64,000 nucleotides of DNA, taken from the NCBI RefSeq assembly GCF_963675165.1, contig NC_087377.1, forward strand, positions 1,823,501 to 1,887,500, read 5' to 3'. This stretch comes from Halichondria panicea. Taxonomy: Eukaryota; Porifera; Demospongiae; Suberitida; Halichondriidae. How positions within the stretch are numbered: the stretch's first letter is position 1; each line of letters starts with the position of its first letter. Of the stretch, positions 1,655 through 63,457 are shown piece after piece. The translations under genes were made by a program, and so were the position numbers. Under the pieces are notes generated by a model. It was not told where the DNA came from. It saw nothing but the letters and a program-made list of their open reading frames with translations, and did not search any database.

Positions 1655-2003
1655 CTGTATAGAGATCAAATTATTTCCGTAGTAGCATAATTAATACTCT
1701 GAAATGTACACCATGCAAATACTCGTCACATGATACACATGTATGTACACACAATACATTGAAAGCTAGTCGAACCACTTTAGACTATAATTATATATAA
1801 TACTGAAGATGGCTTCAATTTATAATGATGTGATAATAACTATACAGTGCATGATCACATTCCCATGCAAGTGGTTCCCTTAATCCTTCACAATCATGTG
1901 AACAAATGCTAGGATTGGGCAGGGAAAGCACCAAATAGCGCGGAAACAAGCAAGTATAACTATAGGAGAGAGTCGTACCAATGAGTATTATAATTATGTA
2001 CAA

Positions 2004-2371
2004 TTAAAATAGCAAACACTTAGTACAATAAGTGATGGTATGCTCCACACAGGTCTTGTGAATGCTGCGAACTGCCTCTCCGTCCTCAATCTCTGAGGCA
2101 ATTTCCACTAATCGTCCGTAGGTAGCTGATGATTTCGATGGATTGTGGAAATCGATGCTTTTACTCTTCCACTTTTTTAGAGCAGCGTTAAATCTCCCTG
2201 GGATGTTATCAACAGTGGAAGGACTCTGATCGATAGCAGTAATCTCAGCATCACTGAGGCCCAGCCTGTGCTTGTATCTGTCATAGCCAGCAATCTCGGT
2301 AGACAACTGAAGAAGAGCTTCATCCGAGCACTCTTGACTCAACTGAGCTGCAGTCGCTGTCGTCTCATGAA
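2004..2371 (-). CDS. Death-domain exon, copy B, donor lost and ending in a stop
   Basis: Same Death-domain sequence as copy A (IAGYDRYKHRLGLSDAEI, then FNAALKKWKS, then TYGRLVEIASEIEDGEAV), opened by an acceptor ending TGTACAG. The donor used by the other copies is altered: after VEHT the frame continues through ITYCTKCLLF to a TAA at 2004-2006. This copy therefore reads as a terminal exon, or as a decayed one. A 48-bp phase 1-1 linker exon lies upstream at 2480-2527, as it does before the copy at 17.7 kb. Whether this is a functional alternative 3' end or a pseudo-exon cannot be told from sequence alone. Confidence 0.65.
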
Positions 2372-2479
2372 CTGTACAGATCAAACATACATTGCATGTT
2401 AAGTGATGACATCATTTCCTATTAGAACTGTATACAGATGTAATGTTGACCTAATTCACAAATGCACAGTATCTGCTAC

Positions 2480-2527
2480 CTGACTGAGTGGTTGTGTGTG
2501 GAGTGGCTAGTGGAGTCACTGCATTAC
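2480..2527 (-). CDS. 48-bp Thr/Pro linker exon upstream of a Death domain
   Basis: An acceptor (CTCCTCACAG) and donor (GTAGCAG) bound 48 bases coding for NAVTPLATPHTTTQS, a Thr/Pro-rich linker. Both junctions are phase 1, like the Death-domain exon downstream. The exon and its flanking introns recur almost identically at 18122-18169. Confidence 0.55.
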
Positions 2528-2668
2528 CTGTGAGGAGGATATGACAATATAACAGTCATGCACAAGAGTACCACTTCATTACACAATGTTTTCTCTAATT
2601 TTAGACCTCAATGTATGGTAATTGGATTGGGCACTTGTAAGAGTTCGGTTGTGATTGTGGGGCAGAGG

Positions 2669-3377
2669 TAGCCTCGATCCCAGGCCGAGTTTTCGCTTTT
2701 ATAACGGTTAGGCGAACAACTAGGCCTGGTACTAGTTGTCTGCGCATGCGTCAGTCGTTCGTCAGATTCTGACGAATGGATATTCTCGTTCACTTTTGTG
2801 ACATTTATATTCGTGTACTATCGTGTACTAGAAGTCAGTTCCCGTTTTATCATTATTGGAATCGATTGGAATGGCTCTTAGCTGAAGCTTCTCTCTTCTC
2901 TGAAGCTTATTTCTGAAGACTGAACAACAAGGGAAGAGGTATAAAGCTTTGTCAAGCTTGTTAAGGTCAGATATTTTTGTGTGGGCCCTATGGCTATGCT
3001 ATCAAGTCTTGTTCATGTTTGGCAAGATCTACCGGTAGGTAGACTATACTTATAGACGTTCATCAAAGATAGTATTAGATGGGCGTGGCCTGTCCATTAG
3101 GCTAGTGTCAGCTCTCACTCCGTTCAGACGATCGTCACCCACACTGTTGAGTCTTTTGTTAGCATAGAGGCTACGGGTAGCTATTAGAATGCTATCACAC
3201 GGGCTAGAAACCTTCACAATCGCACTTCTATCCACTTTCTTCAATCCACTTCCGTTTGTTATGACGTAATTGTTTTACTGAGCATATACGATGTTATCCA
3301 AGTCCCCAGTTTTGGGGGATTATGTGGCGCATGCGCATACCAGGCCCATCTTCAGTGCGGCCTGGGATCGAGGCTAT
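2669..3377. mobile_element. 0.7 kb non-autonomous element with inverted ends (TAGCCTCGATCCCAGGCC)
   Basis: The left end reads TAGCCTCGATCCCAGGCCG and the right end is its reverse complement. Inside each end there is also a shared GCGCATGCGC-like stretch. No transposase is encoded. The same TIR motif bounds much shorter copies (about 50 bp) at 5883-5934 and 25306-25357, which look like internally deleted derivatives. The target-site duplication is unclear. Confidence 0.55.
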
Positions 3378-5272: not shown

Positions 5273-5484
5273 CTGTATAGGTAAAGTTGACAGTTAGCAA
5301 TAAGCATACGCAAGTGGACTATTAGTAGAGAGCAAGTGGTGGTCTTAATTACATTAGAGGGGGTGATACCTTGACCTTATATAAGCCCAGGCTATAGTTA
5401 TTATACACGTACTTGTATTATAGCCGACAATAACATAATTATACGTATCTTCACAGCCCAACACTGCGTATACACTCTACGTAT

Positions 5485-5682
5485 ATGGAACAGATAACAA
5501 ACATGCAAGCCTCTTATCAAACTTTATATTTCTCACAAGTTGCTGCCCACCCCCTCACTCAGGGGTACCTGTGTAGGGCTGAGGAATTGATGGACACAAT
5601 AGAGACAATAGACTACCATCATGCACGCAGGTACACTACCACCCACTCCACTCATCACACACCACCCACTCCATTAGTATGA
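5485..5682 (+). other. Conserved open segment shared with 24893-25080 (uncertain coding)
   Basis: A stretch open on the plus strand whose core (LCRAEELMDTIETIDYHHAR) lies between an acceptor-like CCCCTCACTCAG and a donor-like CAG/GTACAC. Its paralogue at 24.9 kb keeps the core but not the acceptor. The neighbouring duplicated exons are on the minus strand, so this may be non-coding duplicated sequence. No family is recognised. Confidence 0.25.
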
Positions 5683-5781
5683 GTAGGCAATGGAGGACCA
5701 TACATTACAACAAAGGGAGCTAGAGAGCTAGTCCATAGATAGAGTATCTTGGTCCACTCAATAAGACCTGACACTACTCAC

Positions 5782-5835
5782 CCTAGCATTGTCCAGCTCC
5801 CTCTGCAGACTAGCCACCATATCCACCACCATTAA
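5782..5835 (-). CDS. 3' end of a coiled-coil exon (DMVASLQRELDNAR), copy 1
   Basis: The minus strand reads VDMVASLQRELDNAR and then a consensus donor GTGAGT. The heptad-like pattern suggests a coiled coil. Identical peptides with the same donor occur at 16967-17030 and 25201-25250, in each case downstream of a Death-domain copy. The 5' limit of the exon is not resolved. Confidence 0.4.
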
Positions 5836-5882
5836 TCAGTAATACTGGACTGCAATGCATGATCCTCCATCGCTCGCGCTCT

Positions 5883-5934
5883 AGCCTCGATACCAGCCGT
5901 TTGTTATAAGGAAAGGTTGGTCTCGAGGCTACTC
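5883..5934. mobile_element. Miniature (about 50 bp) TIR derivative
   Basis: Ends TAGCCTCGATACCAGCCG and its inverted partner GGTCTCGAGGCTA enclose about 20 bases. Related to the 2669-3377 element; a second copy is at 25306-25357. Confidence 0.4.
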
Positions 5935-6435
5935 GCGCTCATGCTGTCTTCTCTTATCATGAGGCTATGTGGTTAACAAGAAGCTGCAACTGAAGTGATC
6001 CCGTACCCAACAACAATGGTAAAGGGTCACATAATCTAGAAAGCTGGAAATGAAATTTTGCCAAAAAAGTATAAAAATAGAAGGTGATGGTATAATTATA
6101 TACATGTATGCACACACACACAGAACACAGAGCATTATAATAGTCAGTACTTATAGTCAACACAGAGTTAGTTCTTTACTTGACATTCTTGCATGCTTCT
6201 TTACTCGATTGTCCCTTTTCAAGTAACTCCAGTATCTGTATGAAAGCATGAGCGCGCAGCACAATCAACCAAGAGTCTTATAAGCTATAAGCAACATGAC
6301 ATAAGATTAGACTACAATCAGATTACAAACACACGTACCTTGTCAGGTTCTCCTAATCAATTGGTGGCACTATGAGCAACTGCAGTTGCTGTCCTCACAT
6401 ACTTGTCTTCAATTTCCTCGGCTACATCGTTACGC

Positions 6436-13204: not shown

Positions 13205-13329
13205 AACTTACCTGTGTGCTCACCGTAACGCATAATTATACTAACGGAATGTATACTCGCTAAAATCACCATTTCCCATCCAGTGAAACGAATCTCACAA
13301 AAATTTACCCACTATAATTATACGGTAGT
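13205..13329. mobile_element. 3' part of a MITE (type with ACCCxCTATAATTATACGG end)
   Basis: Matches the right half of the element at 60150-60350 (phrases CTCGCTAAAATCACCATTTCC and CAGTGAAACGAATCTCAC). The left half is missing. Confidence 0.5.
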
Positions 13330-14279
13330 AAGACTTTTGCTCAGAAGCAGAGATACACACACCTGTTCACATTTCTTAAGCTCAGAGACACCAATGCAAA
13401 ACTGTGAAAATACTTTCAATATAAGTACAACCAGAAGTCTCGAGGTCAGCTGCGCGTTTACCTCGAGAGAGAAGGCCACACACGGATGACTTACACTTGT
13501 ACCTCTGCTTCAGAGCAAAATGAGCAAAAATAAAATTGCTTCTCCTCCAAATAACACTTCAAGCTTTTTAAACTAGTCCGCCAATTCTTAATTTCATAAG
13601 CTAAATGAAAACATTCTCCCTTAGGTATTACAATAATAGAGATATAATAATACAGTCCTACACTTTGCCCACTTTATGTGTTACCTCATTGAAATCAATT
13701 TAGCATTATTATAAATTAGGTATGGGCAAAGTGTAGTATCTGCTTTAATTTGTTTCACCTTATAATTATCGCGGAGCTCAGACAATGGAAGATACCAGAC
13801 TTGAGTTTCATTCTGATTTCTGTCACAGATCTTGATCCTTTGATATCGTAGAAACAGGACTTGCACGCATGCAGCAGTAATTCAGTCTGCAGGTGTGTTA
13901 TGCATGTGTCAGTCAGTGGGAATCAAAGTGATAAGAACACATGCATGTTCAATGCTGTTAACAAGGCCATTGTGCAACAGAGAATTTCCTAACAGCAAAA
14001 CCACAATATATAATGATTTTTTAAACCTAAACTTGCACCAAGCAAGAGTACTCTTGTGCATGTATAATAAAACAGCCCCTATAAAGGCCACCTCTGTATA
14101 ATAGCTAAAACATTGCTCCACAAATATGTTCGTTGCAAGCATTCTTCATGCAGACATAGGTACATACTACAACACTGCTATCACAGGTTTGGTTTGGCCC
14201 TAACGATATACTACATGGTACTCTTCTTTTGCAAGTGAAAGTCTGCAATCCACTGTGGTGTATGCATGTGATGACTGAG

Positions 14280-14470
14280 AGGTGTAATGACTAGGACAGA
14301 ATAGGTGTGGCTTAGTAGATTAAATGATAGATTATAGGCATGGGTTCGATTCCCTCGAGCTCTTGGGGGACTTTTCTTATATTTCTTTACAGTAATTTCT
14401 CTAATACTACATACTTCCTCTCAAGTCAGTTGGGGCATCGCCCGATTTCACGGAAACCAGGCAACAACAT
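14280..14470 (+). repeat. tRNA-derived SINE
   Basis: GTGGCTTAGTAGATTAAATG (A-box-like) and GGTTCGATTCCC (B box) are followed by a shared SINE body, in the opposite orientation to the 4.25 kb copy. Part of block R1; the R2 counterpart is at 62519-62730. Confidence 0.65.
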
Positions 14471-14772: not shown

Positions 14773-15436
14773 TGAGATTGTAAGCAATTCCTACACTAGG
14801 TTTGTGAGCTACTACTAGCCACACAGACTGAATGTCTGGAGCTAAGAGTCTCCTCAGCATTGGGGCAAAGTACTTTAGATAGTTCTATATACATGTATAG
14901 TACTGGAAGATACACTCCAGACCTACTTTGAGTGTAACCATGCAGTAATATATTCCCCATTCACTCAGCAATACTGTGCTCACCTGATGGGATGTTGTGG
15001 GGGGGGGGGGAGGCTGCATGGGGTAACTGGATTAGGACTCTCATGCAGGGGGGGGTCATGTACACCCTTGCAACTGGAAGGCCTGGGAGAGAAAAAAAGG
15101 ATAGTCACTTATACTCAATAATTATTATGTTCCTCACTTGTCTAATTGTGTGTTTGCTTCCAACATGCTGCACTGTTCAGCCCATCACTCGATCATTGTG
15201 CTCGATCTCGCTGCAAGCCATGTTCAGAAAACCACTCTGAAAAGCACTCGACGTGTGCATGCTAGAAGGTCACAAGGAAGTTTTAAAACCGAGTTGTCAC
15301 TTAGAGTTGAAATGTGAAGACATCTGCAGAACAACAATAACATTGTTAGCACGCAAGATGTTGTTAGCATGCAAGATTGCTGAATACACTGTATATAGTC
15401 TATACAATTACTTATACTGAATATAAATGTTTCCTC

Positions 15437-22429: not shown

Positions 22430-22975
22430 CAGGCCACCCTCTATAATACAGCCAGGTTAATGGTCCCCAAAGTCTCCATAGCATGTGTTTGGACCTGTGT
22501 TAGCAGACCACCCTCTATAATACAGCCAGGTTAATGGGTCCCAAAGTCTCCATAGCATGTGTTTGGACCTGTGTTAGCAGGCCACCCTCTATAATACAGC
22601 CAGGTTAATGGCCCCCAAAGTCTCCATAGCATGTGCTTGGACCTGTGTTAGCAGGCCACCCTCTATAATACAGCCAGGTTAATGGGCCCAAGTCTCCATA
22701 GCATGTGTTTGGACCTGTGTTAGCAGACCACCCTCTATAATACAGCCAGGTTAATGGGCCCCAAAGTCTCCATAGCATGTGTTTGGACCTGTGTTAGCAG
22801 GCCACCGTCTATAATACAGCCAGGTTAATAGGCCCCAAAGTCTCCATAGCATGTGTTTGGACCTGTGTTAGCAGGCCACCCTCTATAATACAGCCAGGTT
22901 AATGGGCCTCAAAGTCTCCATAGCATGTGTTTGCATGGACCTGTGTTAGCAGGCCACCCTCTATAATACAGCCAC
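22430..22975. repeat. Tandem repeat, about seven 74-bp units
   Basis: Unit starts AGGCCACCCTCTATAATACA and ends GGACCTGTGTTAGC. Units differ by single bases; the last carries an extra CATG at about 22934. It lies within an intron of the fragment above, and a half unit is at 21645. Confidence 0.8.
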
Positions 22976-24082: not shown

Positions 24083-25200
24083 TTGGTAGAATGTCAAATG
24101 TTGAAAGGTCATAATTAGTGAAAGGTCAGACCTCCAATAGTACTGCCACATGTCCATCCATACATGCATGGATAAACAATTACACCATACTGTAGTTTAA
24201 AATACAATGACAAATGAAACCTCTCAGCCCATGCCAACTCAGCTAGCATATGGTTGCTCAATATTGACCTCCCTCCACCAAAGGTCTAATACATTGCTAC
24301 AAGTCATCAACCATCTTTACCTGCACTTCCAGAGTTGAGCCAGCCTCCAGCTCATCAGTGTATGCATGGACTAACACACTAGAGCAATATCAGCAATCCC
24401 ATCAAACTGCAGTCTGAAGGTGTACTCCATGCAGTGTATAGTTGCCCTCATGCAGGGGTAGGCTGTAGAGTGGTCCCAGCTGGCAGTCCATCCACCAATA
24501 TCACATTGATACTGCCCTTGTCATGAGTACACCAGTACAGCCTCTGGACCATAGATGAGAGGAGGGAAGTTAGCTGTATAGGTAAAGTTGACATGCAGTT
24601 AGCAATTGCAATAAGTATATACCCAAGTGGACTAAGTGGTGGTATTAGAGGGCAGTACCTTGACCTTGTATAAGCCCTTATACCTGCACATACTCTTTCC
24701 TCAGATCAGGACATGAATTCTTGTGTACCATTGGGTACATTGCTAAACCTCACATGAACAATCTCCTACAACTGAGATAAGCTAATTGCAAACCACATTA
24801 GTTATTATACACGTACTTGTATTATAGCCGACAATAACACACATAATTATACGTATCTTCACAGCCCAACACTGCGTATACACTCTACGTATATGGAACA
24901 GATAACGAACATGCAAGCCTCTTATCAAACTTTATATTTCTCACAAGTTATGATGCAGGATGATGCTGCCCACCCGGGGTACCTGTGTAGGGCTGAGGAA
25001 TTGATGGACACAATAAAGACAATAGACTACCATCATGCACGCAGGTACACTACCACCCACTCCACTCATCACACACCACCCACTACATTAGTAATGTATG
25101 AGTACGCAATGGGGGACCATACATTACAACAAAGGAAGCTAGAGAGCTAGTCCATAGATAAAGTATCTGGGTCCACTCAATAAGACCTGACACTACTCAC

Positions 25201-25250: not shown

Positions 25251-25903
25251 AACATTAATCAGGACTGCAATGCATGATCCTCCATCGTTCGCGCTCTAGC
25301 CTCGAGACCAGCCGTTTGTTATAAGGAAAGGTTGATCTCGAGGCTACTTGCGCTCATGCCTGCCTTCTCTGATCGAGGCTATGTGGTTAACAAGAAGCTG
25401 CAACTGAAGTGATCCCGTACCCAACAACAATGGTAAAGGGTCACTAAACTAGAAAGCTGAAATGAAATTTTGCCAAAAAGTATAAAAATAGAAGGTGATG
25501 GTATATATACATGTATACACACACACACAGGACACAGAGCATTATAATAGTCAGTACTTATAGTCAACACAGAGTCAGTTCTTTACTTGACATTCTTGCA
25601 TGCTTCTTTACTTGACATCTTTATTCGTCCCTTTCAAGTAGCTCCAGTATCTGTATGAAAGCATGAGCACAGCACAATAAACTAGAGCCTTATAAGCAAA
25701 ACATTGCAATAAAACACTGTGTGCAATGAAAATAGGGATCAGATTTATGAATATTCCAGTAATAATCTGTTTAAAAACATGAGTGCATGATTTAGGAGCC
25801 CTCAGGGCTAGTAGAACCCTCAAGTACTTAGAATGCTGTATACTATTATGGCATGGCACAACTGCATGACGAGCAAGGTCACAAAGTTAATAAGGTAACT
25901 CAC

Positions 25904-26818: not shown

Positions 26819-28592
26819 GCTACAGTGCACACAGTGGGACCACACTATAGGCTCTGTACACTAGCTACAGTGCACACAGTGGGACCACACTATAGGCTCT
26901 GTACACTTTAGCTACAGTGTACACAGTGGGACCACACTATAGGCTCTGTACACTAGCTACAGTGCACACAGTGAGACCACACTATAGGCTCTGTACACTA
27001 GTCTACAGTGCACACAGTGGGACCACACTATAGGCTCTGTACACCAGCTACAGTGCAACCACACTATAGGCTCTGTACACTAGCTACAGTGTACACAGTG
27101 GGACCACACTATAGGCTCTGTACACTAGCTACAGTGCACACAGTGGGACCACACTATAGGCTCTGCATGTACACTAGCTACAGTGCACACAGTGGGACCA
27201 CACTATAGGCTCTATACACTAGCTACAGTGCACTAGCTACAGTGCACACAGTGGGACCACACTATAGGCTCTGTACACTAGCTACAGTGCACACAGTGGG
27301 ACCACACTATAGGCTCTGTACACCAGCTACAGTGCACACAGTGGGACCACACTATAGGCTCTGTACACCAGCTACAGTGCACACAGTGGGACCACACTAT
27401 AGGCTCTGTACACTAGCTACAGTGCACACAGTGGGACCACACTATAGGCTCTGTACACTAGCTACAGTGCACACAGTGGGACCACACTATAGGCTCTGTA
27501 CACTAGCTACAGTGCATACAGTGGGACCACACTATAGGCTCTGTACACTAGCTACAGTGCACACAGTGGGACCACACTACTATAGGCTCTGTACACCAGC
27601 TACAGTGCACACAGTGAGACCACACTATAGGCTCTGTACACCAGCTACAGTGCACACAGTGGGACCACACTATAGGCTCCGTACACCAGCTACAGTGCAC
27701 ACAGTGGGACCACACTATAGGCTCTGTACACCAGCTACAGTGCACACAGTGGGACCACACTATAGGCTCTGTACACTAGCTACAGTGCACACAGTGGGAC
27801 CACACTATAGGCTCTATACACCAGCTACAGTGCACACAGTGGGACCACACTATAGGCTCTGTACACTAGCTACAGTGCACACAGTGGGACCACACTATAG
27901 GCTCTGTACACTAGCTACAGTACACAGTGGGACCACACTATAGGCTCTGTACACCAGCTACAGTGCACACAGTGGGTCCACACTATAGGCTCTGTACACT
28001 AGCTACAGTGCACACAGTGGGACCACACTATAGGCTCTGTACACTAGCTACAGTGCACACAGTGGGACCACACTATAGGCTATGTACACTAGCTACAGTG
28101 CACACAGTGCATGGGACCACACTATAGGCTCTGTACACCAGCTACAGTGCACACAGTGGGACCACACTATAGGCTCTGTACACTAGCTACAGTGCACACA
28201 GTGGGACCACACTATAGGCTCTATACACCAGCTACAGTGCACACAGTGGGACCACACTATAGGCTCTGTACACTAGCTACAGTGCACACAGTGGGACCAC
28301 ACTATAGGCTCTGTACACTAGCTACAGTGCACACAGTGGGACCACACTATAGGCTCTGTACACCAGCTACAGTGCACACAGTGGGACCACACTATAGGCT
28401 CTGTACACCAGCTACAGTGCACACAGTGGGACCACACTATAGGCTCTGTACACCAGCTACAGTGCACACAGTGGGACCACACTATAGGCTCTGTACACCA
28501 GCTACAGTGCACACAGTGGGACCACACTATAGGCTCTGTACACCAGCTACAGTGCACACAGTGGGACCACACTATAGGCTCTGTACACTAGT
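26819..28592. repeat. 45-bp satellite array, about 39 units
   Basis: Unit CTAGCTACAGTGCACACAGT plus GGGACCACACTATAGGCTCTGTACA (45 bp in two pieces). Units differ mainly at one C/T position (ACACTAGC or ACACCAGC), which occurs in blocks, as expected from unequal exchange. Because 45 is a multiple of three and the unit has no stops in some frames, long open frames appear on both strands. I treat them as non-coding. Confidence 0.95.
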
Positions 28593-29960: not shown

Positions 29961-31979
29961 CTTTGGGTCAACGTTAATAATCTTTCTGTCTCGTTTATTC
30001 TTAAACAGCAGACCTGAGGCATTGTCTGTAATCACCTGTGTGTGCGTGCGTGGGGGGTGTGTGTGTGTGCGTGTTATATCAAACAAATACAAACAAAGTG
30101 TCCGTGTACAATAATCATGTCAACTAATTATGTACGACGAGACCAAAGGGAGCAACTGTATAATTGAGTAGTGCTATGGCGCCCTACAGACTAGGAGGGC
30201 ACTCACTAGTGTAGTGTTCCAAACACACGTTATAGGCTATCAAACTTTGCTGTGAAAATAAATTATGTTCTGAAAAAACACACACTTTAATTACCGTATA
30301 GCACGAAATTTTCGAGGGGCTTAATTTTCGCGGATTTCGTGGGTTAGAATTCTACACGAAAATTAAGTCCTCAAAAAGTGTTCTTTAATTAGAATTACCT
30401 GCTATCATGCAAAGATTTAAAGGCGTGGCTTCCGGTAAGCAGCTATTCCGCGAACATTGTGCAACGAAATGGTTTTTAGAGGCTAATCCACGAAATATAA
30501 GTGCCTCGAAAATTTCGCGCTATACGGTATTATAGCCCCACGCTTTCTTTTATAATTTGTGCTCGTTGATCTAAGTTATAGTTAGAACATGGGCATGAGG
30601 TATCTATGTGTTATAGTGTCCCAAAGCTCGAGGGCTTCTATTTAAACCTATTGGCTACTAGAAATGCACTAGCTTAGCAACAGTCAACCTATATAAACAG
30701 CCAACCTAGCAACTGCATCATTATTCTTTTGAAAACTAATATCTAAAGTTGACATCTCTGTGTCTCTACTAAATCTGTGGTCTCTATTCAAGTCAACCCT
30801 GTTCCTCCACCTCAGTTTGATGGACAAAATTATAGTCCTAGCTCCACCCACAAAACGAAAACATCCAGCTCCTCCCCCAGTTTTGCAGCAAACAAGCCCA
30901 GCACACTTCCCAAGAAACGAGCGACTCGTACTACTCTCACAAAGCGAAAGGAAGACACCTATAAGCTATAATTTGCAGCAAACAAGCCCAGCAAACGAGC
31001 GGCTCCTACTCTTGAACAAAGCGAAAGGAACTTTAGGAGAAGAAGCCAAACCTAGAATCTCAGCACTTCCATACATCCAGCTCCTCCCCCATGCAGCCTT
31101 GCAGCAAAAAAGCACAGCACACTGCCCAAAAAACGAGCGTCTCCTACTGCTTTCGAACAAAGCCAAAAAAAGAAACTAGAGCTTCTCTCTTTCATTCTAG
31201 TTCTGTTATTATAATTACTAGACAAAGCATCTACATGTAGCTACAATAATTTTTACATGTGTATCTTCTTGTAAATCACAATACAATACAATGTTGTAGT
31301 TTGTAGCCCAGAGCAATCTATAGTACTGGTACTATAGCTCATAGTTCCCTGCTAAATACACTCAAATGGAATCTAAGGACACCATAATATTATTGTAGCA
31401 CTACCAAACAGCTACTAATAAAATAATTAGCTTTTTGAAATTGGACGTTCCCAACACAAGTTATAGCCCTTCAAAGAAAAACTACGAAAACATGACGACA
31501 TGTAATTAATACATATTTTGGCAACCACCTCTTATATATTATACCCACGTATTTCATATTTCTCACACGTACCTGATAATTAGGAGTGGAGTTGGACGAG
31601 GAGAAGTTAGTGTCCCAGTTATAGAAGCTCAAGTCACTGTGTCTAGGGAGCAGCTTCTTCCGTGACGAGAATATGGGATCAAAATCATCCACCTACAATT
31701 ATCATGTACATGTATAATACCACATAGAAAGTTTTCGTATCAAACGAAAATTAAAACGACGGAATTATTCTACTGCAAGAGATTCAATGCGTCACTATCC
31801 TAAGCTGTTGAGCTGTACTTAAAATACTAAATTGGTAGTTACGAAAATTACCCGCTATACGGCAGTTAGATCATTGGGGTGAGGTATACTTTTATGTTAT
31901 AAATACATGTTAGGATCAACCACCTTTATTACTGGTAGTACCTTGAGTCGATGTGCGTAGTCAATGTATCCTGATATCT
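29961..31979 (-). CDS. CFAP299: CFAP299 (C4orf22) middle and C-terminal exons
   Basis: Three exons match the conserved animal cilia and flagella protein CFAP299. The first, at about 31941-31979 (EISGYIDYAHRLK), follows acceptor AAGTATAG. The second is 31573-31692 (VDDFDPIFSSRKKLLPRHSD, then LSFYNWDTNFSSSNSTPNYQ; 40 codons, phase 0-0). The third is 29961-30035 (VITDNASGLLFKNKRDRKII, then NVDPK). Donors are consensus and phases join. The human protein of about 230 residues has the same block order. The N-terminal half and the last exon are not found in the window. A plus-strand first exon begins only 94 bases from the 5'-most exon, so the 5' part is probably lost or displaced. Its molecular role is unknown; it is sperm and cilia associated. 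Confidence 0.85.
30294..30527. mobile_element. 234-bp MITE, reverse copy of 10786-11010, in a CFAP299 intron
   Basis: Ends CCGTATAGCACGAAATTTTC and CTATACGG with flanking TA. The interior matches the 10.8 kb copy read from the other strand. Confidence 0.8.
30777..31179 (+). other. Three diverged repeats coding a Lys/Arg-rich peptide (uncertain)
   Basis: Units of about 110 bp each contain a phrase such as FAANKPSTLPKKRATRTTLT in one frame. Frames shift between units and stops intervene. The segment lies in a CFAP299 intron on the opposite strand. It could be a decayed basic-repeat gene. No family is recognised. Confidence 0.25.
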
Positions 31980-46262: not shown

Positions 46263-46740
46263 ACACAGGTGTCCCCCCCAGAAACAGTGAGGGCCATGTA
46301 TAGAATGCATGCATGTAGTGTTCCGTATTATGTTAGTTGCATTCAAATGTTTGTTAGCCATGCAATGTGTGTTGCAAGCGTTTTGTGGTCAGGTCAATAT
46401 ATATATATAGGGCTGAAGGAATTGACAGCCGAGGCTCCATTAATTTTGGGAATCGTGTGTATACTATAATTATAGGCTAATAATTATGAGCTGAATATTA
46501 TATCATTGACTCAACTATATAGAGTTCATGTCACTAGTTCCTCTATACTCCCTCACAGATTCAATCAAAGAAGGTGCACCTATAGCTGGCCTACATGTAG
46601 GTTCAACCGAAGGGGATATCAGCCAGGCCCTCCGCAGGTTTCGCCTTCGCTACTTTTAAAGCTCAAAAATCGGCCCAAGAGGCAATAAAAAGAAGTTTTG
46701 TTGCCATTAATGGAAAAATGTTGCAATTCAGAAAATAAAA
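46263..46740 (+). pseudogene. First plus-strand RRM copy, internally deleted
   Basis: After a CCCTCACAG acceptor at about 46560, KKVHL and GDISQALRR-type codons are joined directly to the RNP1 half (FAFATFKAQKSAQEAIKRSF, then VAINGKMLQFRK and a stop). The middle exon and two introns are missing. The join falls in a shared CAGGTTT phrase, which suggests microhomology-mediated deletion. The upstream 46270-46480 sequence is an inverted copy of 44840-44950. Confidence 0.5.
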
Positions 46741-47606: not shown

Positions 47607-47923
47607 CTGGACCACTCTCAGTCGCTTCCTCGACCAACCCAGCCACAGTCTCCACCCCAGCCACAGCTAATCCAGCAGCGAACCTATAGCCACAGTCTCC
47701 CCCCCCGGAAACCGTGAGGGCCATGATGTAGGGTTGAATTGACAGCCGAGGCTCCATTAATTTTGGGAATCGTGTGCATGTATACTATAATTATAGGCTA
47801 ATAATTATGAGCTGCATATATATCATTGACTCAACTATATAGAGCAACTAAAACCGAGTGGACTCGACTAGACTATCTTCAACTGCCTCACATCAAAACT
47901 GCAACTATACACCTCGCATCAGC

Positions 47924-48046: not shown

Positions 48047-48329
48047 TGTGCATGCATGCATGTTCCTGTTATGTGATGTGCTGGCACCACATGCATACAT
48101 TTCATCCACATGTTGAAACTCAAGAAGTAACAGTACTTTTATTATGATGCAAAGCCAAATCACTCAAAATGCTTGTGCTGTCTCCAGGGTTCGCCTTTGC
48201 CACTAAGAATCGGCCAATGAGGCAGTGAAGAAAAAATTTGTTTCAGTTAAAGGAAAAAATGTAAGTTAATGTGCATGTCACTGCATCATCTCAGCTCGCA
48301 TGGTATCTATAAATAGCTATTAAATGCTG

Positions 48330-48545: not shown

Positions 48546-48563
48546 TGGTCCGACTAGCCTGAC

Positions 48564-48738
48564 CATGTCGGCATGCTGCTGCAGATGCACAAAAGGATCT
48601 TGCCAAAGTTGTGTGTGTGCCCAGTTCCGTGACCATGTCGGCATCATGCTGCAGATGCACGAAAGGATTCTGTCAGAGTTGTGTGTGTGCCCAGGCCGTG
48701 TACAAATTGCTTCAGCACCAGCTGTACTAACCATGCAG
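48564..48738 (+). pseudogene. Two tandem CXC first exons
   Basis: Two ATGs 74 bases apart open MSACCCRCTKGSCQSCVCAQ and MSASCCRCTKGFCQSCVCAQ. The second continues in a shifted frame to TNCFSTSCTN, then CATGCAG and donor GTTAGTC. The CATG sits exactly where the 44.35 kb copy has none. Confidence 0.55.
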
Positions 48739-50164: not shown

Positions 50165-50564
50165 AATGTTTATAATGGCACCACATGCACACTTTGTCCA
50201 CAGGTGGTAATCCAGAAGTAACAGTATACTATGATATACCAAGCCAAATCACTCTAAGTTATTGAATTATGTATAATATACATTACTGAAGTATCAACCA
50301 CTATCTGCATGAACACGAACACGAACACAAGCATTTTATGTGGTCCCTCCATTTGGTAGGGAAAGCCATGAACATTTTCAAAAGACGATGGTGTAGAAAT
50401 ATACTATTATAATTACTCTCGCAACCGAGAAGAAGTGTTTTTGGGCGGCTTGCCCCTTGGATGCACCATTAACATTGTGTTGCCCCTTGGATGCACCATT
50501 AACACTGTGAAGGTGGCCCTCCAATGCTGTGAAACAATCCATGTAAGTTATAATCCCATCGCCT

Positions 50565-50664
50565 GGGTTCGGGTTTGCTACCCTAAAAACAGTCGCAGAA
50601 GCTGAGAAGGCTATAAAAGCCAAAAGTATTATAATAAAAGAAAAAAGAGAAATAGTTGTGTGAA
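50565..50664 (+). CDS. RRM terminal exon (GFGFATL type)
   Basis: GFGFATLKTVAEAEKAIKAK, then SIIIKEKREIVV and a stop. Acceptor-like sequence precedes it. The upstream 50430-50540 holds a duplicated 28-base phrase (GCCCCTTGGATGCACCATTA). The nearest first-half RRM exon is damaged, so this may be an orphan. Confidence 0.45.
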
Positions 50665-50979
50665 TGCATGTTATATGATGTGCTGGCACCACGCACATAC
50701 TTTGTCCACATGCATTGACTCGACTGAGTGTGGTTCCTTTACTCACAAAAAAGTGGGGCTGCAGGGACAATCAAAGATGACATCAGTGCTTTGGCCCCAC
50801 TAGCGTGAGTCATTATAAGCTAGGGTATAGATTTAAAAAATGATGTAAGTTTAATGTGCATGTTCCTGTTTTGTGCTGGCACACACTTTGTCACAGGTGA
50901 AACTCCAGAAAAGAGTAGTATGTTATATATAGAAACAGAGCACAATAATATTATATTTATTATCATCCCATCCCATGGG

Positions 50980-51450
50980 TTCGGGTTTGCTACCCTAAAA
51001 ACAGCTGCATGCAGAAGCTGAGAAGGCTATAGCGGCCAAAGCTGTTGTAATCAAAGAAAAAAGAGTAAGTTTTATAATAGTTGGCACCACATTCGCCACA
51101 TTCGCAAAAGTGTCAGCTGACAATGACGTATACAGGGGAAAAATGATTTAAAAATGATGTAAATTAATGTGCATGTTCCTGGCACACACTTTGTCACAGG
51201 TGAAACTCCAGAAAAGAGTAGTATGTTATATAGAAACAGAGCATAATATTATATGCATATAATTATGTATATAGATTGTGCTCATCCCAGCCCAGGGGTT
51301 CGCCTTTGCCACCCTAAAAAGCAAAGCCACGGCTGAGAAGGCTATTGAAGCCAAAACTATTTTAATTAGTTTGGATTCGTTACAAAAGCAGCAGCAGAGA
51401 AGGCTATTGAGGCTAAAAGCATTATAATTAAAGAAAAAAGAGTAAGTTTT
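50980..51450 (+). pseudogene. Three further RRM terminal exons, damaged
   Basis: 50987-51066 matches the 50565 exon but carries CATG at 51008-51011 and meets a stop. 51297-51372 (GFAFATLKSKATAEKAIEAK) runs directly into a second tail copy (KAAAEKAIEAKS-type codons, out of frame) at 51373-51447. Confidence 0.5.
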
Positions 51451-51595
51451 AATATATATTATATAGTTGTGTGATGTGCTGGCATGTATGCACTTTGTTC
51501 ACAGATTGAAATTAGAGTAAAAACTTCACGTGTAGTATTATTATTAGTTAATCATTATAAAAAGGGCCTCATCTTCTCTAGTGCTCTCTCCGGCA

Positions 51596-53345: not shown

Positions 53346-56300
53346 TTACTTCAGTAAACATAAGTTACAAAGTGATTTTTCCAGGCCTGCTGGAGTTATC
53401 TTATCTGGGAGCTCGCAGTCGTCAAACGTGGATCCCTCCTTCAGAAGTTCGTGGCGAATCTCTGTGATGACGTCCGCCCTCTCTTTAGTGTACATAACAC
53501 CTGGAAGGTAAATACTTATAATTTATTTTATGTATGTTTTTACTCCCAGCCCCTCTTCTACTTAAATCACAAGACTTCACCTTTATGAGAAGATGAAAAG
53601 CGGAAATGATGTCCCTTCTTGATGCCGGTCATTTTCTTGAACTTATAGGGGCGAAGAAGGTGATCCAGTCCAGTGTTGGGACAATCACATTCCCATGCTC
53701 ATCACTGACCAGCTGTGCCTCATTACAAATAGCTGACTTCTGGACAACTTCAGCAATTGACCTTAGGCTACCAATCCTGGTCCTCTTGAAGAGACGCTTA
53801 AAGAGTCCGAAGCACCAGTCAGGAGCGAACTTGGTGTGACCCACTACCAGGAAGGACAGAGTGATGTTAGTGTGCCTTCCTGTGATGACCCTCCACAGCA
53901 GGTACCAGACCATATAGTTGTTTTTATTCTGGCCCGTGCAGTTGTCTGCGTGGAGGTACACATCAGTCTCACCTGTATAGTAAAATATTCTATGCAAAGT
54001 TGTTCACAGAAATTTTGTTATTGCCGTACCCAGCCCGTGGTTCTCCAAGAAGTAGTGCAGCTGGCTGATCACCGTGTTGGAGCCCTTCCCACAGTCACCT
54101 GCCTCATCACAAAGGAAATTGACTTGGCGTGGGAAGGCCTCGCAGTGAATACCAAAGACTGCACACTTTCTTGGAGTGAGAAAGAACACTGGGCCAGGCT
54201 GTAGTGGATCACACGGATAATGAACCTGAAAGAGAGATGTCATGTGAGTAATGTACATGTACCTAAAATTTGATTTTGCAGGCACGTACTGTACGTGACT
54301 GTAAAATTAGTGATGTACACACGTACTACTGTACATGTAGGAAGTCCTAAAATTTGATTTTGCAGGCACGTACTGTACGTGACTGTAAAATTAGTGATGT
54401 ACACACGTACTACTGTACATGTACGAAGTCCTAAAATTTGATTTTGCAGGCACGTACTGTACGTGACTGTAAAATTAGTGATGTACACACGTACTACTGT
54501 ACATGTAGGAAGTCCTAAAAATTGATTTTGCAGGCACGTACTGTATGTGACTGTAAAATTAGTGATGTACACACGTACTACTGTACATGTACGAACTCCT
54601 AAAAATTGATTTTGCAGGCACGTACTGTACGTGACTGTAAAACACACGTACAGTACATGGCTCTCACCTGCTGAGCATAATCAAAAGAATAGTGAGCCTT
54701 GATGGGTGCCGAGTTTGGTTCTGCTCTGGAGTGAAGAGGAGGAGGAGAGAATTCGTTATTCACTGTGTAGTGCTGCGTGATTGAATCCTTGCACTCCTTG
54801 CGAACAGCCGTGTAGTACGACCACTCTATCGTCACGGTGGTGAGATGGTCCTGATACGCCTGGAGTGCCGCATTCTTCTCCTCTAGTGATGATGAAGCAC
54901 TCTTGATGGCTTCACCACGTTGTTGGCATGTCCAACATAAGTCGGTGAGAGGCTTCATGATTACCAGTGATGGTAGTAACTCCAGCCACCTTCTGCAAAA
55001 GGTACGGTAAGATGCGGCTCTTTGATCGCACTTAATCATTGCATCTCTGTAGTCTTTCCAGATGTTCCGTTTGGTCACACTAGAAGGAAGTAGCTTGATA
55101 TCCGTGCGACAGTAGCCAGGGACTCTACCAGGCAGAAGCATCCCGTGGACCTCAGAGTAGTTGGTAAGGTATGTCTGCGTAACATTTATAATTATTTATT
55201 GTGCCTGCCTACATAAAAGTATTGTATTTGTTATTGTTCAAACTTACAACTATACTCTCATTGTCGTCCTGGGACAGAGTTGTTTGGGGGAGCCGTCGCT
55301 TGTTGCCGTGCACTCTAGCAGCAAGTCCATACTTGCGATAGGAGGACTTCAGATTTTTCAGTTTCGTCTTTCCTATGTATGAAAGGTACAGTACAGTACA
55401 CAGTTAGTATAATCATACAGTCATGGTCAAGTAGGAAATTTACTTGCTCCTGAGAAACCAGTGATAAATTAAATAGTTACTTCCTAACCTATTCCGTGTA
55501 GGAATCGAAAGACAGGGGCACACACTGGTTGTCCCTTGTGTTTGTACAACACACTGCTCCGTTTCCGCTGAGACTTCTTGTGTTTGTGGCTGGGTCCGCA
55601 GATTTTGTTGACCTTCATTGACGAATGGAGCTGCGCCAGAATGACCAAGTCGAGTTTGTCCTTCGATAGCTCTAAACATTCTCTCTTGGAATCAGTCAAT
55701 TGATTTTTACCAAGAATTGACGCGCAGGTACAGGTACACTCTTTGAAGACTTTTGCTAATAACGCGGACTCGCTCTGCTCCTCTTGTTCTACAGATTTAG
55801 CCCCAGAAAACCTTGACTGATGGGAGGACGGAGGAGGGAGCCGTTGGAGTGCTTCTCGAATCTGTTGTTCTGTGGTGGGGGGGGGCTCTGAGTCGGATTC
55901 ACTGTCACCTGATAAGTTTAATAAGTGTTTAAGAATTACAAATTATAATGCGCTTACAGTCAGTCTGTGGGTCACTATGGAAGGGTAACGGAGACATTGG
56001 GTCAAGACGGTCACTACAACACGGCGACATTGGGTCAAGACTTGGAAGTGGGTCGTAATGAGGGGATGACGGCAACGTCCAGCCATGACTGCCATCTACA
56101 AAAACAAAAACACAAATTTTAATGTTGCTGTTATTATTATTACTGTTATTATTGTTATTACTGTACTAATGTTGCTTGTTGATTTTGCCCTACCTCTTGA
56201 GATAGAGAAGCTGTCATCTTCACTAGAATCCTCTGAGTCTGATGCAGAATCCTCTGAGTCTGATGCCTGTGCTCTTGAGTGCCCAGTGAAGTAGTCCAGG

Positions 56301-57518: not shown

Positions 57519-58768
57519 TCACTTTGCGTTGGACATATCCGGATATAAAATGCCAACAGCTGCTCCAAGATGTCTTTTACCCTCTGCTGTGATTGACACT
57601 CTTGAACCATTAAATTTCGCTTTGGCCTCTTCTAGGTAATCTTCTTTCACGATAAGCCAGGTCTTTTCGGCATTAGGGTAGTATCTGTAGTCTGGGCCCA
57701 ATTGCGCTAAGCGGTCCCATGCACCATTCTCTGAGATCTTGAAGTGACCCACCAGCCGTAGCATCATCAGCATACCAGGCTTGCTTGATTCCTGCATTTT
57801 CTAGTCGATAGATGAGTGGGGTTATGGCGATTGCGTACATGGCCATGGCTAGTGGATCCCCTTGGGTGGTGCCTTCCTGGGAATGGAGTGTGTTCCCTTC
57901 AATGAATAGTTCTGACTCATTTCTGTAGGTGTTGATGATAATTCTTGAAAGAGAAGGGCATAACTGTTGAATGTTGCGTAGAGCAGCCTCACGGTTAAGT
58001 GAATTGAAAGCGTTTGAGGCATCCACTAGGATAACTGCTTCTGTCGGTTGAGAATCAGACTTCACGCATGGCATGAACAGCTACTTCACATCCCGATATA
58101 TGACCTGCGCATACCTGAAGGGGACCTGCTGCATCTTGGATGTCTTCTTTGAGGGTTGATGCAATAGCTTTCCCGATAATTCTCCTAGCGGTCTCTCCAA
58201 TGCCTATGGGGCGGACTCCTGGGCATTTGTCTAAAGCTATGAGTCTGCAGGCAACAAAAGCTGATAGCCCCTTGGGATCCACAAAACTGGTGCTTAGTCG
58301 TCTTGCAACTGCTGCTAGGGTGTCACATAGCTCAGAGGAAACTGCTTTGAATGAGGTACAAAGCCGTTTCCAAGCAGCTACGTCAAGGCCTGATGGTCCG
58401 GCAGCTCCATCCATCTTAAGGACCGTGCTGCGTATCAATTGTCCATCAATTCTTTCGAAAATAATAGGGTGGGGATCTGTGACTGGTGGGTTAGAGTTTA
58501 CAATCGTATCCATCTTGTAAGGTTGCTTTGGTGGATATTTCTTTAGCAAGCTGTTGAGGACACTTTCAGTGGCATTGTTTGGGTCTGCTGCGCTGTCTAG
58601 ACATAGTGGTTTGGATGTTTGATTTTCAGCTATCAGTCTGAGAGCCGCCCTCACTTTGCCTTCCATCATAACTTTAGAGAATTTTCTGGAAAGCTGGTCA
58701 GTTGAAATATTGCCAGCCTTTACACAGGCACAGTTAAGACAACGCCCGGTTCTATTACAAAGTACCAT
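57519..58768 (-). pseudogene. Reverse transcriptase of a retroelement, broken in two places
   Basis: A CXC-like CNRTGRCLNCACVKAG near the 5' end leads into KMDGAAGPSGLDVAAWKRLC, RLIALDKCPGVRPIGIGETA and then RT motifs: ILVDASNAFNSLNR (motif A), GTTQGDPLAMAMYAIAITPL (motif B), and WYADD (motif C). A downstream segment reads PDYRYYPNAEKTWLIV and GKRHLGAAVG before truncation at about 57540. RTs of this type, with a CXC motif, occur in multi-copy families of sponges and cnidarians; I do not place the clade. Breaks: one base near 58060, and CATG at 57718-57721 just after motif C. The 3' end is lost where sequence shared with 9.9 kb begins. Confidence 0.8.
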
Positions 58769-59769: not shown

Positions 59770-60120
59770 GGATTTGCTTTCGTTATGCACGCACTTTGTC
59801 AACAGGTGGAAATCAACAACAAAATTAAAGTAACCGTGTTACAATGTTTGTCAGAATAATCACTAGATTCGCTATAAGTATATTCAGTATAATAAGTCAT
59901 GATTATTTCTGCCTCAAGGCAAGTGGCGGCTCCAGGCGCTCTGATTGGACGCGGCTGAACGGGCCAATATTTACTAGCCTCGGTACGTAGTCTCATATTC
60001 ATGTCACTGCATGGTTCCTTTGTCCCTCACAGACACTATCAAAACAATGCAAGGTGTATTTGGGCGGCTTTCCCTGCTGCGGTGAGCCAATTTTTGTAAC
60101 TTATTTATCAATTGAAAACA
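59770..60120 (+). pseudogene. RRM remnants (RNP1 piece and first-exon piece)
   Basis: GTATCCAGGATTTGCTTTCG at about 59763 is the start of an RNP1 exon (GFAFV) that is cut short. At 60035 the acceptor CCCTCACAG leads to TLSKQCKVYLGGFPCCGE, the first RRM exon, whose helix is missing. Paralogue of 12.18 kb; it carries CATG at 60010-60013. Confidence 0.5.
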
Positions 60121-60149: not shown

Positions 60150-60350
60150 GTATAGCGGGTGATCATAAACGGTGAGTTAAAATATTCGTTATTTTCGTGG
60201 GGAAGCTTCATGGCCTACACGAAATTTTCCCCCACGAAAACGTAGGTATGCTTACCGTAATGCATACTAACGAATTTATACTCGCGAAAATCACCATTTC
60301 CCATTCAGTGAAACGAATCTCACGAAAATTTACCCTCTATAATTATACGG
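60150..60350. mobile_element. MITE, about 200 bp, ends TATAGCGGGT and CTATAATTATACGG
   Basis: Interior shares TTCGTGGGG and CGAAAATCACCATTTCC phrases with the 13.2 kb fragment. The right end carries six extra bases (AATTAT) within CTATACGG, as does the 13.2 kb copy, so both descend from one insertion before the segment was duplicated. Confidence 0.55.
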
Positions 60351-61178
60351 TAGTAAGACTTTTGCCTCAGAAGCAGAGATACACACACCTGTTCACATTT
60401 CTTAAGCTCAGATGGCATCAATGCAAAACTGTGAAAATACTTTCAATATAAGTACAACCAGAAGTCTCGAGGTCAGCTGAACGTTTACTTCCTCAAGAGA
60501 AGGCCACACACAGATTGAAGCTAGTACAAGAGCACTGACTTACACTTGTACCTCTGCTTCAGAGCAAAATGAAAAATTGCTTCTCCAAACACTTCGAGCT
60601 TTTTAAACTAGTCCGCCAATTCTTAATTTTATAAGCTAAATGAAAACATTCTCCCTTAGGTATTACAATAGAGATATAATAATACAGTCCTACACTTTGC
60701 CCACTTTATGTGTTACTTCATTGAAATCAATTTAGCATTATTATAAATTAGGTATGGGCAAAGTGTAGTATCTGTTTTAATTTGTTTCACCTTATAATTA
60801 TCGCGGAGCTCATACAATGGAAGATACCAGACTTGAGTTTCATTCTGATTTCTGTCACAGATCTTGATCCTTTGATATCGTAGAAACGGGACTTGCACGC
60901 ATGCAGCAGTAATTCAGTCTGCAGTTGTGATGCATGTGTAGTCAGGGGGAATCAAAGTGATAAGAACACATGCATGTTCAATGCTGTTAACAAGGTGCAA
61001 CAGAGAATTTCCTAACAGCAAAACCACAATAGATAATGATTTCTTAAGCCTAAACTTGCACCAAGCAAGAGTACTCTTGTGTATAAATAAAACAGCCCCT
61101 TCACGCCACCTCTATATAATGGCCAAAACATTGCTCCACAAATGTGTTCATTGCAAGCATTCTTCATGCAGATACAGG

Positions 61179-62402
61179 AACAGTTCATTTAGTCTAGAGA
61201 GTAGATTACCACAAATGTGTGAGTAGTTGTACTTAAATGTAAATATCTTTTGATTGGAGCATTTCTAAGAAATGGTGCGTGTGTAGATGAATGACTGAAC
61301 TACAACAAATCCAAAAATGTTTCCATGGAAACATAAGGTGGTGGGTTTGTGGTGATTAATAGAACAACAGCGAATTGTTATAGTGGGTAATCGGTTAGAG
61401 TAATAAAACAGTAATCTTGTACAGCTAAGGTCCTAGACTTCATCACATAATTGTTCAATGGTTTAGGTATCCTGACAATCCCTTTATGGGTGTTACAAAT
61501 GCTCACAGTGTTTATAATTCATGATTTACTGGTTTTCAGGTACACTTTTGGTTAGAGTAATAACTTTTGAAAAATTAATAGCTTAGCTTTCAAATTTCTG
61601 TAGTAAGTTTACAGATAAATGGGCTACATTTTGATACCAAGAACATCCTATATGCTTATTCCATTGCTGAGATAACACTAAAAAGGTACATAATTTACTA
61701 TTTTCTACTGTTTTGATGACATCGCAGCTGCAAACCACAAACCAATGATGCTTTAATCAACCACAAACGTAATTAAAAGTGGGCGTACAGTTATTATACG
61801 CCCACTTACATTACATGTTAATTTGAGTGTCATCGATTTGTGGTTAGCAGCTTGTGATGTCATCAAAACAGTAGAAAATAGTAGAATATGTAGTTTTTCA
61901 GTGATATTCAACAATGGAATAAGCATAGAGGATGTTCTTGGTATCAAAAAATGTAGCCCATTTATTTGTAAACTTACCAGAGAACTTTTAAAGCTAAGCT
62001 ATAAAATTTTCAGAAGATATTACTCTAACCAAAAGTGTATCTAAAAACCGGTAAATGATAAATTATAGACACTGTGAGCATATGTAAGACCCATATAAAG
62101 GGATATGGTCAGGATACCTAAACCATTAATCTATTGTGTGATAAAAGTCTAAGACCTTAGCTGTTTAAGGTTAGTGTTTTATTACTCTAACCGGTTACCC
62201 ACTATAACAATTTGCTGTTGTTCTATTAATCACCAAAAACCCACCGCCTTATGTTTCAATGGAAACATTTTTAGATATGTTGTAGTTCAGTCATTCATCT
62301 ACACACAGGTATCAACACCATTTCTTAGAAATGCTCCAATCAAAAGATATTTACATTTAAGTACAACTACTCACACATTTGTGGTAATCTACTCAATGAA
62401 CT
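61179..62402. mobile_element. 1.2 kb fold-back element (near-perfect long palindrome)
   Basis: The two halves are inverted copies over about 600 bases each, from AACAGTTCATT at the left to AATGAACTG at the right, and meet at a hairpin AGTGGGCGTA/TACGCCCACT around 61792. Block R1 has an uninterrupted sequence at the same place (ACATAGGTACATAC, 14155-14168), which proves an insertion. A four-base GTAC at the junction may be the target site. No transposase is encoded. Confidence 0.85.
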
Positions 62403-62518
62403 GTACATACTATAAGCTTTTCAACACTGCTATCACAGGTTTGGTTTGGCCCTAACGATATACTACATGGTACTTTTCTTTTGCAAGTGATAGTCTGCAA
62501 TCCACTGTGTGTATGCCT

Positions 62519-62730
62519 GTGATGACTGAGAGGTGTAATGACTAGGACAGAATAGGTGTGGCTTAGTAGATTAGATTATAGATTAGGCATGGGTTCGATT
62601 CCCTCTTGGGGGACTTTTCTTATATTTTTTTACAATAATTTCTCTAATACTACATACTTCCTCTCAAGTCATAAAATCAAGTTGGGGCATCGCCCGCTTT
62701 CACGGAAACCAGGCAACAACATTAATTTTT
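62519..62730 (+). repeat. tRNA-derived SINE, R2 copy
   Basis: GTGGCTTAGTAGATTAG and GGGTTCGATTCCC as in R1, with a few bases lost between the two boxes. Confidence 0.6.
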
Positions 62731-63457
62731 TTGTAGAAGTGGCCAAAATAGTTCAACTAACACTAAAAGTATTTTGATCATATCTAACAATCTAATAGTG
62801 GTTTTGCTGTGGCATGCACTCGGTTGCAAGTCACTGTATACATTTCCCACTCTGCACAAAACCCACAAGTGGGTAAACCACAGACAGAAGACACTACCTA
62901 CTTCTCACAACTCCAAGGCATGGGGTCAGGACTGGGTAACAACTGTAGCTAGAGAATAGAGGACTGCAAGCCTCTCTGTACCAGCTATCCTCTCTGCACC
63001 AGATATCCTCTCTGTACCAGCAAGCCTCTCTGCACCAGATACCCTTGATACTGTAAGCAATTCCTATACTAGGTTTGTGAGCTAATACTACTAGTCACAC
63101 AGACTGAATGTCTGGAGCTATAAGAGAGAAACTGTCTCCTCAGCGTCGGGGCAAGGTACTTTAGATAGTTCTATATAGTTTTTTACATGTATACTGGAAA
63201 ATACCCTCTAGACCTACTTTGAGTGTAACCAGTAATATATTCCCTATACATGCACTCAGCAATACTATGCTCACCTGATGGGATGTTGTGGGGGGGGGGC
63301 TGCATGGGGTAACTGGATTAGGACTCTCATGCAGGGGGGTGGGGTCTTGTACACCCTTGCAGAGAAAAAAAGGATGAAATGTGAAGACATCTGCAGAACA
63401 ACAATTAACGTTGTTAGCATGCATGATTGCTGAATACACTGTATATAGTTTATACAA

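Follow-up and report, generated by a model that had tools for sequence, protein, structure and literature searches.

The stretch of sponge DNA analysed here (Halichondria panicea, contig 1, positions 1823501-1887500 of a 131.5-Mb genome in 39 contigs; 64,000 nucleotides, hereafter the window) carries duplicated segments whose copies differ again and again by four extra bases, CATG, placed such that the product reads TGCATG or CATGCA. The window sits in a long cluster of repeated segments at about 1.25-2.5 Mb of contig 1, and copies of its positions 5395-6285 and 13214-14164 recur in that cluster, mostly on one strand and at 79-92% identity. Tandem arrays occupy 22426-22974 (74-bp units) and 26814-28597 (45-bp units), and a palindromic repeat of 1.2 kb lies at 61199-62394, with arms about 87% alike, a TA target and CAGTTC ends, which is a Tc1/mariner-type layout; most of its listed copies are 92-96% alike and they are spread over many contigs. 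Open frames noted on the minus strand of the window include one of 294 amino acids with a protein kinase domain (19403-20287), a reverse-transcriptase fragment (57673-58080), a DUF7869 domain (53629-54003) and four related frames (TAAQLSQECSDEALLQLSTEIAGYDRYK...; 1287-1670, 2004-2411, 17589-18050 and 25887-26261) that appear death-domain-like by eye; frame 2004-2411, the one of the four that was scanned, gave no Pfam match. No Rfam match was found in the window, and a search for COX1 yielded a single fragment, which contains two TGA codons.

The recurrence of CATG between paralogues had been proposed in a first-pass annotation made from the letters alone, and it was confirmed. When its 11 pairwise cases were realigned, eight were clean (1712, 14059, 24449, 24592, 46311, 47777, 60010 and the pair 14939/63229, whose first member had been given as 14039 and should be 14939). 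The less clean ones are 48051, where eight extra bases are indeed present, and 51008 and 63249, where the extra bases are mixed with substitutions. Its three array cases (22934, 27166 and 28110) were recovered against other units of their arrays by a mechanical self-comparison of the window, which kept insertions and deletions (indels) with good flanks. Taking rotations of CATG and their complements as one class, CATG accounts for 11 of the 25 four-base indels listed in this comparison, followed by AGGC (3) and ACTG (2), and at least one AGGC entry (27163) is an alternative placing of the CATG entry at 27164. The sites are collected in Table 1, including some that the first-pass annotation did not list. 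As the insert at 14939 is common to one other copy and absent from 11, it is derived and inherited, and by majority of the copies the difference at 25863 is a deletion elsewhere, or else an old insertion.

Table 1. Insertion sites in the window (position 1 is its first base). Some of the alignment entries counted for array units (5, 12, 14) repeat one pair of units.
Positions	Sequence	Difference between copies	Method
1712..1717	CATGCA	CATG gained relative to the copy at 26318	pairwise alignment
2393..2398	TGCATG	4 bp more than the copy near 18032; not listed before	self-comparison, pairwise alignment
6093..6098	TAATTA	derived 4-bp insertion in aTAt; second class	self-comparison
14057..14062	TGCATG	4 bp longer than 61079	pairwise alignment
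14354..14362	CTCGAGCTC	derived 6-bp insertion, X-revcomp(X)-X with three-base X	sequence comparison
14939..14944	CATGCA	CATG gained relative to 63229; in one other copy (L038), missing from 11	self-comparison, pairwise alignment, polarised set
22932..22937	TGCATG	in one 74-bp array unit; five alignment entries against other units	self-comparison
24449..24454	CATGCA	CATG gained relative to 5113	self-comparison, pairwise alignment
24592..24597	CATGCA	CATG gained relative to 5290	pairwise alignment
25863..25868	TGCATG	present in 15 sequences, absent from 4; not listed before	self-comparison
27164..27169	TGCATG	in one 45-bp array unit; 12 alignment entries	self-comparison
28108..28113	TGCATG	in another 45-bp array unit; 14 alignment entries	self-comparison
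31090..31095	CATGCA	4 bp extra between internal copies 30861 and 31073; not listed before	self-comparison
46305..46315	ATGCATGCATG	exceeds the inverted copy at 44950 by one CATG (stepwise growth)	self-comparison, pairwise alignment
46359..46364	CATGCA	4 bp more than the inverted copy near 44828-44981; not listed before	self-comparison
47775..47780	TGCATG	4 bp longer than 46457	self-comparison, pairwise alignment
48049..48062	TGCATGCATGCATG	eight bases longer than 48802	pairwise alignment
48732..48737	CATGCA	derived; common to L076, missing from 6 other copies	polarised set
51006..51013	TGCATGCA	extra bases and an adjoining substitution relative to 50593; counted as derived against 7 other copies	pairwise alignment, polarised set
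60008..60013	TGCATG	4 bp longer than 12152	pairwise alignment
63249..63254	CATGCA	complex difference from 14960; 9 copies with, 4 without; not a clean derived insertion	pairwise alignment

Beyond the window we fetched 112 loci (L001-L112, 201 kb), namely copies of the duplicated segments, of the palindromic 1.2-kb repeat and of a 390-bp repeat from many contigs, together with paralogues of window 33000-42000 and 46200-51500. Loci and window were compared all against all; an indel was kept if at least 10 of 12 bases matched on each side, was shifted to a standard position, and was then clustered, with both orientations merged. Polarity was called by the majority of copies, as insertion when carriers were at most one third of the non-carriers and as deletion in the reverse case, and 78 four-base events without callable polarity (9 CATG-class, 9 AATT-class) stand outside the main counts. 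Fifteen of the 54 polarised 4-bp insertions belong to the CATG class, which makes up 2.27% of the 4-mers in random DNA of this genome, so that 1.2 would be expected (P about 8e-13); among the polarised 4-bp deletions the class has 3 of 18. A strict set, limited to events that a single copy carries and four or more copies lack, has the class in 13 of its 42 insertions and in 1 of its 11 deletions. Merging the orientations had reduced the insertion count from 16 of 57, the CATG event dropped being the other strand of a site that most copies carry. The first-pass annotation had called for a tabulation of 4-bp indels by sequence, and in ours, run on the window and the 112 loci, CATG is the commonest class of polarised insertion. 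On their own, MAFFT alignments of the repeat families yielded three CATG insertions, every one of them in family D and none in families A and B or in the palindromic element; the main count thus depends largely on the all-against-all comparison.

All 15 polarised CATG-class inserts have the form TG.CA.TG or CA.TG.CA. The rule that the insertion lies directly after TG or before CA, stated earlier for every case, holds throughout the polarised set and is broken by one unpolarised CATG insertion. The target in the non-carrier copies has neither TGCA nor CATG in 12 of the 15 (one of these 12 has TGCATG directly adjoining, and for 11 both the target and the sequence directly beside it are free of either word); of the other three, one lengthens ATGCATG and two arose at or near TGCA. 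Two derived inserts are each common to two copies and are thus inherited. The two-base target was also read in the non-carrier copies of 16 events of the list as it stood before the orientation merge, 15 of which were retained, and was TG 66 times, CA 32 times and CG 4 times; decay of a CpG at the target was rejected on these states. The CATG inserts are recurrent, mostly derived and mostly born where no repeat existed, and the insertion bias between copies is real and well supported in the contig-1 cluster.

The first-pass observation was right and understated, as CATG heads a whole spectrum of self-complementary insertions. By class, the 54 insertions comprise CATG 15, AATT 10, ATAT 7, ACGT 3, AGCT 3 and 16 in 13 other classes, so the remark that other indels are mixed in sequence does not stand. 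Self-complementary under rotation are 38 of these 54 (10.4% of random 4-mers) and 11 of the 24 polarised 6-bp insertions (4.8% in random DNA); among polarised deletions the numbers are 7 of 18 for 4 bp and 1 of 14 for 6 bp. A form often seen is X-revcomp(X)-X, in which a short word X is followed by its reverse complement and by itself again, as in TG.CA.TG, TT.AA.TT, GT.AC.GT and CT.AG.CT, and three 6-bp insertions have a three-base X (TGT.ACA.TGT, AGA.TCT.AGA and GAG.CTC.GAG). In the list before the merge, 26 4-bp insertions were eligible for a comparison of filler and repeated dinucleotide, and the two were reverse complements in 20 and not in 6; nine further insertions, whose dinucleotide is self-complementary, had been set aside. 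TG/CA was the favoured two-base X, with at least 12 of those 20 events, and CA/TG makes up 16% of dinucleotides. Of five polarised 3-bp insertions with a two-base repeat, the filler of three (TTATT, AATAA and ATAAT) fits a fold-back base on one side, none of them at TG. The polarised 2-bp insertions that duplicate one dinucleotide, counted before the merge, did so for TA in 13 of 20 and for CA/TG in 3, TA being 7.5% of dinucleotides. By length, polarised insertions number 60 of 2 bp, 54 of 4 bp and 50 of 1 bp.

Other traits of the indels were noted on the way. Polarised deletions peak at 8-10 bp (21, 32 and 20 for 8, 9 and 10 bp, against 6 for 7 bp and 10 for 11 bp), 49 of these 73 have microhomology of at most one base, and the peak is present in the palindromic repeat and in other families; insertions of 8-10 bp were called as well (44). 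Indels of up to 12 bp stand at 153 against 545 substitution alleles in the contig-1 families A, B and D, and lower in the dispersed repeats, at 41 against 382 in the palindromic and 6 against 57 in the 390-bp one.

A second insertion class, which belongs to the same odd indel spectrum as the CATG inserts, converts ATAT to ATAATTAT. All 14 TAATTA events (6 insertions, 1 deletion and 7 unpolarised) occurred in aTAt, and so did the four TAATATTA events. Genome-wide, ATAATTAT is found at 100,191 places against 5,899 for its reversed control, which holds no CpG, an excess of about 90,000 in 131 Mb. In a random-DNA sample of 75 kb from 15 contigs (L114-L128) it occurs 120 times where 13 are expected (order-3 Markov, both strands), or about 0.8 per kb, and window 6093 is one example. 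No common flanks were seen by eye among 60 of its places listed. A single rule for both classes was considered, but the conversion of ATAT to ATAATTAT could not be derived from X-revcomp(X)-X.

Word counts extend the matter to the genome. In the 75-kb sample, TGCATG exceeds its Markov expectation 2.8-fold (order 2) or 1.8-fold (order 3), and TAATTA 3.8-fold or 2.2-fold. TGCATG is found at 145,529 + 145,032 = 290,561 places in the whole genome against 37,558 + 37,585 for the reversed control, and TGCATGCATGCATG at 1,393 + 1,389 against 109 + 107; both reversed controls contain CpG (2.2% of dinucleotides), such that these ratios overstate the excess and the Markov expectation is the preferred measure for TGCATG. 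Applied to the genome count, the order-3 and order-2 expectations give an excess of about 130,000-190,000 TGCATG. Per kb, TGCATG stands at 2.7 for the window, 2.2 for random DNA and 0.42 for palindromic-repeat loci, and the low value in the repeat fits a gain with age, with a part played by the repeat's own composition. The single CATG insertion seen in a copy of the palindromic repeat (L024) lies within the contig-1 cluster, and a whole-genome test of one TG site of this element, in which inserted copies only were counted, returned one CATG-inserted copy, the same L024. As the carriers lie on contigs 1 and 16 only and the loci sampled for two dispersed repeats gave no polarised CATG insertion, the genome-wide claim rests on word counts, by which a CATG bias across the genome is likely. 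The excess of eight-letter palindromes in the random DNA is concentrated in ATAATTAT, TACATGTA, TGCATGCA and CATGCATG; TACATGTA was counted 31 times against 2.9 expected and is present in 9 of the 15 loci.

The account that we tentatively favour, at a little under an even chance, is that the CATG inserts come from an insertion-biased germline mutation process, not a mobile element, which would turn a short X into X-revcomp(X)-X in one step, TG becoming TG.CA.TG, TT becoming TT.AA.TT, and a three-base X behaving likewise. The insertion bias is well supported, and we infer the mechanism as follows. Fill-in of a two-base 5' overhang, left by a break at TG/CA, would duplicate the dinucleotide; each end would gain one palindromic (fold-back) nucleotide, and their joining would produce TG + C + A + TG. 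The observed TG.C.A.TG is consistent with one complementary filler base per end. Since the filler between the TG copies holds no information beyond TG itself, fold-back is its simplest source. The first-pass annotation had offered hairpin-type end processing or biased repair among its explanations; both are compatible with the data, and we favour them on two grounds: most fillers reverse-complement the dinucleotide that was duplicated, and further insertions follow the X-revcomp(X)-X pattern. TG/CA, and TA in the 2-bp duplications, are pyrimidine-purine steps, and the preference for them suggests a cutting step; we therefore lean towards a break over the alternative route, in which replication would switch template for two or three bases and yield the same product. 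A new TGCATG may later grow by slippage into (TGCA)n.

Several results weigh against this process, or against its generality. The carriers of all 15 polarised CATG inserts are confined to contigs 1 and 16; the loci with the palindromic repeat only (L041-L075) gave two polarised 4-bp insertions, none of them CATG, and the 18 copies of the 390-bp dispersed repeat, which total 57 substitution alleles, gave no polarised 4-bp insertion. For other X-revcomp(X)-X hexamers the excess is mild (order 2: AGCTAG 1.8-fold, GATCGA 1.55-fold, AATTAA 1.4-fold, ACGTAC 1.3-fold; those holding CpG have few counts). Nine-letter words of this form reach 3.9 times expectation and the X-complement(X)-X control 4.1 times, so the nine-letter test does not discriminate, and eight-letter palindromes overall stand at 1.4 times expectation against 1.3 for mirror words. 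Seven of the 18 4-bp deletions are self-complementary too (Fisher P 0.02, before the merge). No TGCTG or TGATG insertion was seen, and the sole CATCA event appears to be a deletion. The ATAATTAT class does not follow the X-revcomp(X)-X rule, and gene conversion in the contig-1 cluster could distort the polarity.

Unlikely, and yet a serious contender, is short-range template switching, in which the polymerase copies X, moves to the complementary strand for 2-3 bases and returns. Such a switch would most simply yield X-revcomp(X)-X, three-base X do occur, and the insert is the reverse complement of adjacent sequence in 20 of the 26 eligible 4-bp insertions (before the merge) and in three 6-bp ones. 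Short templated inversions are described in great apes, with a median switched length of 12 (PMC7954356), against an X of 2-3 bases here. A generic switch, moreover, would not favour TG/CA so strongly, and it leaves unexplained the ATAATTAT class, whose insert is not a reverse complement of its neighbour.

It is likewise unlikely, though conceivable, that an activity which inserts DNA, either dedicated to this or strongly biased, operates in the germline of the lineage and places CATG at TG and AATT at ATAT. It would have left the excesses of TGCATG and ATAATTAT given above. UGCAUG is an Rbfox-type word and TAATTA a homeodomain-type word, so that mutation would be seeding two regulatory words.

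A footprint of a mobile element, also suggested in the first-pass annotation, appears rather improbable. On excision, TG.CA.TG would remain from a DNA transposon with 5'-CA ends and a TG/CA duplication, TG-[CA...TG]-TG, and a variant with a TA target and AT ends would leave TA.AT.TA and TA.ATAT.TA. A Tc1/mariner-like footprint is a 2-bp duplication plus two bases, which the inserts resemble, and the aTAt context of all 14 TAATTA events resembles the target preference of mariner. Putative Stowaway footprints are described with 2-4 end bases beside the TA duplication (PMC1925063). An abundant Tc1/mariner-type element is indeed present in the genome; its target is TA and its CAGTTC ends are unable to leave AT. 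The duplicated dinucleotide of the CATG inserts is TG or CA in all 15, not TA, which the TAATTA class would fit. Among 34 rows of long insertions between paralogues (same-strand pairs, a small sample and partly redundant, several rows being length variants of one insertion), none had a TG/CA duplication with CA...TG inverted ends; one insertion of 709 bp has a CA duplication and ends in TG but lacks terminal inverted repeats. The alternative product TG.TG.TG (ACAC class) is absent from the 54 polarised 4-bp insertions, and the excess of TGCATG would demand very many excisions.

We give little weight to a weakness of mismatch repair for loops of 2-4 bases (MutS-beta type), by which self-pairing loops would persist. 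The polarised insertions of 2 bp and those of 4 bp match the 1-bp ones in frequency, and self-complementary inserts are able to form small hairpins, but a repair defect is expected to show first in repeats and most CATG inserts lie outside them. As the origin of the inserts, ordinary microsatellite slippage in (TGCA)n or (CATG)n is very improbable and largely refuted: although (TGCA)n runs are common in the genome and four of the 15 inserts have one of these words at, near or adjoining the target, most targets are free of them. The earlier statement that this is not a microsatellite pattern is thus upheld for the origin of most inserts, the commonness of (TGCA)n runs notwithstanding. Slippage is likely to act in the later growth of inserts, and 46305 and 48049 show growth by further units. 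An artefact of assembly, alignment or chance deserves next to no credence: the comparison rests on assembled sequence and a gap may be placed in several ways within two or more bases, but gap shifts were normalised, flanks were matched on each side, the P value is very small, two derived inserts each stand in two separate copies, and random DNA, too, has more TGCATG than expected.

The usual view is that small insertions arise mostly by slippage and by joining with random filler. Here the 4-bp insertion seen most often is a single self-complementary word at repeat-free sites, which points to an unusual step of break repair or replication. A biased mutation process could by itself fill a genome with motifs resembling signals for splicing or transcription. 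Any assembly can be scanned for the signature, so its spread across related animals could be mapped and matched to losses of repair genes. In the literature searched, which covered few subscription journals, we found no published report of a CATG-insertion signature.

Among known systems, slippage of tetranucleotide microsatellites proceeds in 4-bp steps, and the inserts share these steps and a genome in which (TGCA)n runs are common; they differ in that most arise at repeat-free sites, a preexisting unit being found in 3 of 15. Both V(D)J joining and the footprints of hAT elements carry palindromic (P) nucleotides from hairpin-opened ends, whose filler, like most of that seen here, is the reverse complement of the duplicated end, whereas here the duplication is of two bases, with one filler base per side, and we found no excised element or recombinase. 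Tc1/mariner and Stowaway footprints (PMC1925063) share a 2-bp duplication plus a few bases; unlike them, the present inserts have a TG/CA target and a filler that agrees with this target instead of with any known element end, and our small sample yielded no source element. The short template-switch mutations of great apes (PMC7954356) and, reportedly, of yeast (PMC8604942) have in common with the inserts a short inverted copy of the neighbouring sequence inserted in one step; the ape events, with their median of 12, are longer, and those of the sponge have an X of 2-3 bases and are dominated by CATG.

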